Source of the DNA: Nocardiopsis sp. N85
Lineage (GTDB): Bacteria; Actinomycetota; Actinomycetes; Streptosporangiales; Streptosporangiaceae
Assembly (NCBI RefSeq): GCF_028882275.1
Contig: NZ_JARBUT010000001.1
Location: forward strand, 620,001 to 684,000
Reading direction: 5' to 3'
Length of the DNA stretch: 64,000 bases
The notes under the pieces are model-generated. The model saw nothing but the letters and a program-made list of their open reading frames with translations, did no database searches and had not been told where the DNA came from. The position numbers were made by a program, and so were the translations under genes. This document shows positions 25,786 to 26,989 of this stretch, piece after piece. Positions within the stretch are counted from its first letter, which is position 1. Each line of letters starts with the position of its first letter.

Positions 25786-26445
25786 ATGACGGTCAACACG
25801 CAGCCGGCCCCCCAACGCCCCGACCCCCGGGCCTTCGGACTCCCCGTCGTCGAACAGGCCGACATCCCCGCCGAGCTGCGCGACCTGGTGGCCCGCGTCC
25901 ACACCCTCATCGACGTGGTCGCCAACACCGGAGCCGACACCGACACCCTCGCCGAGGCCGCCGCCACCATCGAGGACGTCACCGGCCGCCTCGACGTCGC
26001 CCGCCGCCAGATCGGCACCATGGTCCGCCGCGAACTCGACGACGGCACCGCCGAGCACGGCACCATCACGAACATCGTCGCCGGCGACACCAACCCGGCC
26101 GCCCCACCGCTCTTCCTCCAGCCCACCGCCGAGGGCGTGCGCGGCGAGGTCACCCTCGGCACCCTCTACCAGGGCCCGCCCGGACTCGTCCACGGCGGCT
26201 GGATCGCCGCCCTCCTCGACCAGGCCGTCGGCACCGCCTCCTCCCTGGCCACCTCACCCGGCCTCACCGCCAAACTCGAAGTGGACTACCGCAGGCCCAC
26301 CCCCCTGTTCAACCCGCTGGAGATCACCGCCGAAGTGCGGCGCACCGAACGGCGCAAGGTCTTCGTCACCGGCCGCATCCGCGTCAACGGCGAGGTCACC
26401 GCCGAGGCGAACGCCATCATGGTGCGCGTCGAGATCCCCGAATAG
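25786..26445 (+). CDS. PaaI-type hotdog-fold thioesterase
   Basis: The 219-residue protein has a hotdog domain in its second half with the catalytic-loop motif GLVHGGWIAALLDQAVG (about residues 131-147) and the following KLEVDYRRPTPL strand. Such enzymes hydrolyse acyl-CoA thioesters. The N-terminal 90 residues form a helical region (DLVARVHTLIDVVANTGAD) not found in minimal PaaI proteins, possibly an oligomerisation element. The ATG at 25786 has GACGAGG upstream. Confidence 0.88.
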   Translation: MTVNTQPAPQRPDPRAFGLPVVEQADIPAELRDLVARVHTLIDVVANTGADTDTLAEAAATIEDVTGRLDVARRQIGTMVRRELDDGTAEHGTITNIVAGDTNPAAPPLFLQPTAEGVRGEVTLGTLYQGPPGLVHGGWIAALLDQAVGTASSLATSPGLTAKLEVDYRRPTPLFNPLEITAEVRRTERRKVFVTGRIRVNGEVTAEANAIMVRVEIPE

Positions 26446-26491
26446 GCGGGTCCCCGTGCACACACCCCACGGACGCGCTACCATCACGGAC

Positions 26492-26551
26492 ATGACCCAC
26501 CGCTATCGCGTGTTTAACGAGCCGACGCTCCCGTCGGCCGTCGACACGTAG
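26492..26551 (+). CDS. 19-residue leader ORF upstream of chorismate mutase
   Basis: The ORF reads MTHRYRVFNEPTLPSAVDT and uses TAT for Tyr and TTT for Phe, codons rare in this GC-rich DNA. ATG 26492 has no ribosome site but lies 7 nt after TACCAT (26479-26484), so it would be translated from a leaderless mRNA. A terminator-like hairpin starts 24 bp after its stop, and the chorismate mutase gene begins 126 bp after it. Chorismate mutase makes the Phe/Tyr precursor, so a Tyr/Phe-sensing attenuator is a reasonable hypothesis. The reading frame is seen; the function is inferred. Confidence 0.55.
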   Translation: MTHRYRVFNEPTLPSAVDT

Positions 26552-26574
26552 GCGGAAACGGGAACGTCGGCAAC

Positions 26575-26610
26575 AGAGCACTCGGGCATCGCGCCCCGGT
26601 GCTCTTTCGC
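26575..26610 (+). terminator. Intrinsic terminator/attenuator before chorismate mutase
   Basis: AGAGCAC (26575-26581) pairs with GTGCTCT (26599-26605), and after one bulged T, CGGG (26583-26586) pairs with CCCG (26595-26598); the loop is 8 nt. A pyrimidine stretch TTCGCTTTCC follows. The 11-bp stem with partial T-run lies between the leader ORF and the structural gene, the expected layout for attenuation. Confidence 0.65.
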
Positions 26611-26677
26611 TTTCCAGGCGGCCGACACCCCCGCGCGGGACACCGTACGGCCGCACCCAACGCGACCGGAGGCCACC

Positions 26678-26989
26678 GTGCACGACCAGACCACCACCCC
26701 GTCCACCACCCACGAGATCGCCCGGCTGCGCGAACACATCGACGACGTCGACGCCCGACTCGCCGAACTCCTCGAACAGCGCGCCCTCATCGCCGCCCGG
26801 GTCCAACGGCTCAAGCCCGTCGGCTACTTCGCCGGCCGCGACATGGACCGCGAGCGCCGCCTCGTCGAACGCATGGCCCGACACGCTCCCCGCCTGGGCG
26901 CCGACCGGCTCGCCGCCATCATGGACAGCGTCATCAGCGCGGGACTGGCCGCCGCCGAGGAGGAGGCCGCCCGCCAACACCGACCGTGA
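26678..26989 (+). CDS. AroQ-type chorismate mutase
   Basis: This 103-residue all-helical enzyme converts chorismate to prephenate, the first step toward Phe and Tyr. The conserved LREHIDDVDARLAELLEQR helix, an Arg/Lys in VQRLK and the RDMDRERRLVERM segment match monofunctional AroQ proteins. No prephenate dehydratase or dehydrogenase domain is fused. The GTG at 26678 has GGAGG about 6 nt upstream. No signal peptide is seen, so it acts in the cytoplasm. It may be controlled by the leader ORF and hairpin upstream. Confidence 0.9.
   Translation: MHDQTTTPSTTHEIARLREHIDDVDARLAELLEQRALIAARVQRLKPVGYFAGRDMDRERRLVERMARHAPRLGADRLAAIMDSVISAGLAAAEEEAARQHRP

Follow-up and report, generated by a model that had tools for sequence, protein, structure and literature searches.

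A candidate phenylalanine-responsive leader of the AroR type ahead of a chorismate mutase gene in Nocardiopsis

Described leaders and the layout of the locus

In Escherichia coli, the leaders pheL (before pheA) and that of pheST encode peptides with Phe codons, ahead of a chorismate mutase (CM)-containing gene and of Phe-tRNA synthetase, respectively. A review names both (PMC11802643); the sources cited here by PMC number were available in part, and what we say of them holds for those parts. In actinobacteria, the AroR leader precedes aroF of Corynebacterium glutamicum (Neshat et al. 2014, cited through PMC11802643, PMC4046766 and PMC7356990). AroR encodes Phe-Tyr-Phe, and transcription of the aroF operon is reported to rise under limitation for Phe, not for Tyr (PMC11802643). 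A metabolic engineering paper describes AroR as translational control of aroF by Phe and Tyr (PMC7356990), and a survey of small RNAs also names the leader (PMC4046766).

Other actinobacterial leaders, those of trp, leu, ilv and cys genes, are short and often leaderless ORFs with codons for the product amino acid, located before biosynthesis genes (PMC1262725, PMC8079986). The table for S. lividans, in the part available, holds eight leader peptides, none of them before a CM or DAHP synthase gene (PMC8079986), and the accessible text of a 2005 survey of actinobacterial genomes reports no conservation of RNA structure upstream of the operons for Phe or Tyr (PMC1262725). The initial annotation of the present locus knew of no characterised example for an actinobacterial AroQ gene. 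Among the papers listed by our search of the open-access literature there was likewise none on a characterised leader of an actinobacterial chorismate mutase.

We analysed a candidate leader of this kind in a 64,000-nt stretch of Nocardiopsis sp. N85 DNA (the window). It has the following features:

26479..26484, + strand: -10-like hexamer TACCAT (TANNNT); TA...T invariant in the 34/34 same-genus copies aligned
26492..26551, + strand: leaderless leader-peptide ORF, 19 codons and TAG, MTHRYRVFNEPTLPSAVDT; frame intact in 34/34 same-genus copies
26513..26515, + strand: putative control codon UUU (Phe, codon 8), then A; TTT in 33/34 same-genus copies and in 79/82 leaders overall
26521..26531, + strand: strand 1 (GCCGACGCTCC), beginning 8 nt past the first base of the UUU codon; from the fixed offset and covariation with strand 3
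26532..26538, + strand: strand 2 (CGTCGGC), forming a local hairpin with strand 1; from the consensus fold
26562..26572, + strand: strand 3 (GGAACGTCGGC), 3' of the leader stop codon, with strand 1 or strand 4 as partner; from pairing, covariation and mask folding
26575..26605, + strand: hairpin T, terminator-like, 12 pairs with one 1x1 mismatch; from sequence and folding, predicted in all ribosome states
26606..26615, + strand: U-rich tail TTCGCTTTCC of hairpin T; from sequence
26617..26626, + strand: strand 4 (GGCGGCCGAC), located 3' of T, another partner for strand 3; from complementarity, with a weak folding control
26644..26654, + strand: strand 5 (CGTACGGCCGC), which may pair with strand 4; of all strands the one with the weakest case, from by-eye comparison only
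26668..26672, + strand: GGAGG, ribosome-binding site of the CM gene; from sequence
26678..26989, + strand: chorismate mutase gene (AroQ type, CM_2), 103 aa, GTG start at 26678; Pfam CM_2, E 1.5e-11

The hexamer fits TAnnnT, the -10 consensus of S. lividans (PMC8079986), and ends 7 nt before the ATG of the leader ORF, which is the spacing of a leaderless start; the transcript would begin at or near that ATG. The initial annotation had described a leaderless 19-codon ORF with TAT and TTT codons, both rare, followed by an 11-bp terminator-like hairpin and a chorismate mutase gene. The ORF and the next downstream gene were as described, the latter by its Pfam match (its NCBIfam matches were all under the curated cut-offs). 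Both codons are indeed rare: among 34 script-picked genes of the window, TTT makes up 9/384 Phe codons (2.3%) and TAT 11/252 Tyr codons. The hairpin and its U-rich tail are also present, and only the length differs, with 12 pairs and one mismatch in place of 11 bp. Folded alone, hairpin T reaches -20.0 kcal/mol. Its U tail is broken by CGC; by the sequence criterion only, hairpin and tail qualify as an intrinsic terminator ahead of the CM gene.

We compared this layout with the aroF leader L174, from the one genome among 401 of family f4 whose aroF start fitted the C. glutamicum primer, differing from it at 3 of 27 positions. Its leader (MFAARFYFMTGSGASPRKLAINCAS; start taken at the ATG, with an in-frame GTG also upstream) encodes Phe-Tyr-Phe, as does the known AroR attenuator. 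Codon 8 is TTT followed by A, strand 1 is CCGGCTCCGG, strand 3 is CCGGAGTCG and a hairpin with TTTTTTG follows. The window has the same arrangement of a short ORF with a Phe control codon ahead of an aromatic-pathway gene, with UUU as codon 8 and A as the next base, strand 1 right behind it, strand 3 past the stop codon and a U-run hairpin, the comparison being with L174 rather than with C. glutamicum itself. It differs from AroR in its target, chorismate mutase and not DAHP synthase, in a peptide with one Phe instead of Phe-Tyr-Phe and in the extra strands behind the hairpin. Since the two layouts agree, the window element is best classed with the AroR-type leaders, with chorismate mutase as a new target.

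We consider the element quite likely to be a leaderless, Phe-responsive, ribosome-mediated attenuator of the chorismate mutase gene and a member of the AroR leader family. This reading is favoured by the conservation of the leader, the layout of L174, the bias towards UUU and the position of a ribosome at UUU, which would cover a strand 1 that covaries with strand 3. With enough charged tRNA-Phe, the ribosome would pass the UUU at codon 8 and reach the stop codon, strand 1 would be free to pair with strand 3 beyond the stop and expression would be low. When Phe is short, the ribosome would wait at UUU and cover strand 1, blocking the 1:3 helix; strand 3 would be released, with strand 4 on the far side of the hairpin as a possible partner, and CM would be expressed. 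The leader thus probably raises the amount of CM enzyme when phenylalanine runs short, a direction that we infer from the reported behaviour of AroR. The E. coli pheL and pheST leaders share with it a leader peptide with Phe codons before a CM-containing or Phe-tRNA synthetase gene. The window leader differs from them in its leaderless start, in its single invariant control codon and in that no antiterminator was found; we therefore say that it would work like a classical attenuator and claim no membership in the strict trp type. From the actinobacterial trp, leu, ilv and cys leaders it differs in amino acid and targets.

Conservation and distribution of the leader

A protein search found the CM gene in 34/40 same-genus genomes. 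We read the upstream regions of all 34 genus CM loci, and the leader ORF, its start spacing and the hairpin were present in 34/34. (A script had picked an upstream start codon in six of these copies, L011, L023, L025, L031, L033 and L034, which we reset by hand; in alignment A1 of the leaders, L001-L003 stop a few bases early.) The genus peptide resembles MTHRYFVFSQPTxPSAA, with a freely variable residue after Pro-Thr, and the control codon is codon 8 in 33/34 copies and codon 9 in one. Folding of the stretch 26493-26620 was stronger than that of 200 shuffles (z = -4.1), and together with the ORF, a TTT (33) or TTC (1) codon and a hairpin at 34/34 genus CM loci this places the leader above chance. 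Conservation of leader peptide and hairpin in related genomes is what the initial annotation had proposed as a check of its suggestion, and the suggestion withstood it. Searches against Rfam 15 assigned no family: three matches within 26300-26800 were all far under the gathering score, and eight related loci gave 0 matches at that score.

In five of the six same-genus genomes without a CM match (one of the five is 85% complete), nothing matched the leader below E 0.1. The sixth, G015, holds a relic at E 5.7e-9 (L097, G015:C7:259278-259436) that, read by eye, lacks the hexamer, carries TTC in place of TTT and still has the stem of T. Since the leader stands at 34/34 CM loci and goes unmatched in five of six genomes without a CM match, leader and CM gene are retained or lost together, the G015 relic apart.

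A covariance model built from the 34 genus copies found matches in 26/200 genomes of the family, in two groups. One comprises CM leaders of other genera and the other a second, lower-scoring kind of leader ahead of ORFs starting MVIVM; the one such ORF tested, that of L110 in the window's own genome, is a DAHP synthase. A second model, R2, was built from 27 diverse CM leaders. It matched 39/47 other-genus CM loci, drawn from 72 other-genus genomes with a CM match, below E 0.004, upstream of CM in the correct orientation; seeds accounted for 14 of the 47 places, partial matches for 9 of the 39, and sequences that had been fetched too short for several of the 8 misses. In a class-wide sample, 63/394 genomes matched at E 0.01 or better, a count that includes chance matches near the limit, and we read 34 of the match places. 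The class-wide matches near E 0.001-0.01, evident chance matches such as L162 and L165 among them, were not counted as leaders. In family f4, 40/121 genomes matched at E 0.01, some of them partly only, and 12/20 of the f4 loci L175-L194 were read.

Across several families, the leader precedes stand-alone CM genes, CM fusions and DAHP synthases. The downstream gene is a CM fused to a DAHP-synthase-like domain in L134 and L146 (Pfam DAHP_synth_1 + CM_2), a CM_2 protein in L156 (family f19), and an aroFGH-type DAHP synthase in L161 (f4), L157 (f19) and L147 (f37). The downstream genes tested in relatives (L110, L134, L146, L147, L156, L157, L161) were thus all CM or DAHP synthase; the remaining ones were assigned from ORFs by eye. 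In the literature searched, the AroR layout, found here in several families, was otherwise described only for C. glutamicum aroF, and chorismate mutase would join the genes probably under Phe-leader control in actinobacteria.

This distribution bears on the simplest alternative, an unregulated terminator behind the upstream thioesterase gene, with an ORF that arose by chance or encodes a small protein. The stem of T that survives in the CM-less G015 would suit it, whereas the occurrence of the element ahead of CM and DAHP synthase genes in several families and the five of six CM-less same-genus genomes without a match speak against it. We regard it as very improbable.

Three side observations were made at these loci. 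In L134:479-1453 (-), L146:387-1340 (+) and L156:393-1034 (+), from other genera and f19, CM is fused to a shortened DAHP-synthase-like domain (by Pfam in L134 and L146). In several f19 loci, a putative dnaE-like ORF, judged by a motif, follows. The second leader of the window's own genome (L110:1501-1651, G000:C13:26529-26679; also in L100-L103 and L105-L109) is another leaderless aromatic leader, MQRNFWRFYGYRP..., in which TTT is codon 8 and both TAT and Trp codons occur. It has a strong terminator and stands ahead of a TIGR01361-type DAHP synthase (only L110 was tested); its MQR start and Leu-Arg end also occur in the f4 DAHP-synthase leaders.

Control codon and pairing of strands 1 and 3

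We compared codons in 82 leaders with 73 distinct peptides: 34 from the genus, 18 others from the family, 13 more from the family (mostly before fused genes; L135 not), 9 from f19 and 8 DAHP-synthase copies, the 48 non-genus leaders having been found by motif or model and not forming an unbiased sample. Every copy read has a Phe codon. The control codon is TTT in 79/82 leaders, as against 1/31 for the other Phe codons upstream in the same leaders. Strand 1 starts 8 nt past the first base of the control codon in 79/82 and 5 nt past it in 3/82. If the ribosome is taken to cover 14 nt past the first base of the codon in its A site, one waiting at the control codon would hide most of the stretch of strand 1 that pairs. 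The analysis singles out one codon and one spacing for direct tests. The single invariant Phe codon, in place of the run of control codons typical of classical trp and phe attenuators, counts against a Phe attenuator, as does the report that codon changes in a look-alike ilvB leader of S. coelicolor were without effect (Seliverstov 2005, PMC1262725, as far as available).

The base after the control codon is A in 78/82 leaders (UUUA; window 26513-26516) even though the encoded amino acid varies. This would suit a reading in which a protein or small molecule binds the RNA, with UUUA as part of the binding site and the ORF secondary. A protein site has been proposed for the LEU element since changes of leucine codons did not influence regulation (Seliverstov 2005, PMC1262725, in the part available). 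Against such a binding site stand the intact frame and fixed start spacing in 34/34 copies and the Phe codon in every copy read, and no Rfam family matched at its gathering score; we think this explanation quite unlikely.

The initial annotation had proposed sensing of Tyr as well as Phe. The Phe part gained from the Phe codon invariant in the genus and from the aroF (AroR) layout, for which Phe control is reported; the Tyr part drew weaker support. Tyr codons occur in 28/34 genus leaders and 62/82 overall, and those before the control codon are mostly the rare TAT (55/65), but 6/34 and 20/82 leaders have no Tyr. With a ribosome placed at the Tyr codon, the 1:3 helix was kept on average in every group. 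The two accounts of AroR disagree on this point, aroF being under Phe and Tyr control in one (PMC7356990) and AroR unresponsive to Tyr in the other (PMC11802643), each as far as its text was available. Sensing of both amino acids is, in our estimate, unlikely.

Strands 1 and 3 are complementary in the genus (GCCGACG/CGTCGGC) and elsewhere with other sequences (GCCGGCTCCGG/CCGGAGCCGGC, GCCGGCTTCGG/CCGAAGCCGGC, GCCGGCTCCAG/CTGGAGTCGGC). In 36 distinct strand pairs, 88.9% of the 1:3 cells were pairing as against 72.1% in shuffles, the covariation score was 0.422 against 0.157 and cells altered on both sides numbered 65 against 22; none of 500 shuffles was as high in any of these measures. Registers slid against each other gave covariation scores of 0.02-0.22. 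Two of the five measures were not above shuffles, which weakens the case: pairs with a double change (6 vs 5.2; 147/500 shuffles as high) and pair types (20 vs 17.9; 81/500). Native strands formed 9.8 of 11 pairs compared with 7.9 when swapped in a fixed register, and 10.0 compared with 8.6 of 11 for foreign strands 1 with the register optimised. In these comparisons strand 3 was located by its pairing with strand 1 (and is possibly misplaced in L095, L045 and L160), and shared ancestry can inflate covariation scores.

We then folded the leaders with a mask for the ribosome. These folds are equilibrium folds and the mask hides strand 1 by construction, so that only what replaces the 1:3 helix is a result. 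The pattern looked for has two parts: 1:3 pairing while the ribosome sits at the stop codon, and a downstream partner for strand 3 while it sits at the Phe codon. It was found in 33/34 genus leaders and in 17/18, 10/13 and 7/9 of the other CM-type groups (67/74 CM-type leaders). The stop-codon mask was cut at the start of strand 3, which favours 1:3; an uncut mask gave similar genus means (1:3 8.4, downstream 2.2). Two results are less favourable to a Phe attenuator: the pattern appeared in only 2/8 DAHP-synthase leaders, and in the free genus RNA strand 3 was mostly paired downstream already, so that a switch was counted from the free state in 6/34 only. In L174, the free RNA had 8.6 pairs of 1:3. 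Ribosome masks at Phe6, Tyr7 and Phe8 gave 8.0, 4.9 and 0.1 pairs, respectively, as expected; the mask at the stop codon gave only 1.9, against the model.

Hairpin T and the output step

The initial annotation had supposed that ribosome stalling governs read-through at the hairpin (26575-26605), and folding did not bear this out. In 52 leaders, the mean pair probability of T was 0.95 in the free RNA, 0.97 with the ribosome at the Phe codon and 0.97 at the stop codon; with T predicted in every ribosome state, a classical antiterminator is missing. By folding, no antiterminator that excludes T on stalling was found in these 52 leaders, and among the duplexes listed those between the region of the Phe codon and the 5' arm of T were weak. 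This counts against a Phe attenuator. The aroF leader L174, of the leaders analysed the closest relative of an attenuator that reportedly works, also gave 0.99 for T in all states; the folding test therefore has no power here, and we dropped it as a disproof.

A different output would leave the Phe sensor unchanged: 3:4 pairing would release strand 5 along with the surroundings of the CM ribosome-binding site, leaving T an accessory role as a pause site or partial terminator. T is absent from two f4 DAHP-synthase leaders, L161 and L163 (other f4 leaders compared by eye); their strands 3 and 4 form a direct hairpin and, by eye, a stretch like strand 5 adjoins the ribosome-binding site. Seven of nine f19 leaders have a T without a following U-run (by eye; the automatic hairpin search, used for viewing only, chose other hairpins at several f19, f4 and other loci). 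Strand 4 fits its native strand 3 better than foreign ones in 34/34 genus and 9/9 f19 copies and in 11/13 and 13/18 of the others, and AroR has been called a translational regulator (PMC7356990, in the part available). Against this output stand the U-rich tail of the window's T and the leader L174, in which T comes with TTTTTTG while strands 4 and 5 are not evident. In the window, 13 nt separate strand 5 from GGAGG, and by eye we found no pairing between the two. Only 2/8 DAHP-synthase leaders passed the 3:4 test (in the f4 ones the direct hairpin was missed, as the search started too far downstream). The shuffle control for 3:4 was weak, which tells against the Phe attenuator in either form: 8.3 vs 6.7 pairs in the genus, with 63/272 shuffles as good, and 6.1 vs 4.5 in other copies. 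We regard an output behind T as possible but doubtful.

For the window, termination at hairpin T is our first choice of output, at about even chances; next comes a step past T, close to where CM starts. The output step seems to vary between lineages: L174 (aroF) has a U-run terminator, f4 a terminator-free hairpin close to the ribosome-binding site, and the window's genus the two in series. It is conceivable, if somewhat short of an even chance, that actinobacteria share one Phe-sensing module (UUU, strand 1 and strand 3), retained for DAHP synthase and chorismate mutase as the two branch-point enzymes, with the output part exchanged between lineages. If so, the attenuator would resemble riboswitches in having an expression platform that can be swapped. 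The lineages offer a natural series in which the sensor is constant and the output part seemingly changes.

A further observation concerns the f4 leaders (MQRAYFWFSRPAPGG... and similar), which lack hairpin T; about half of those read have a GGGTCGGCCTGAGAACAGGAA-like block right before the gene start.
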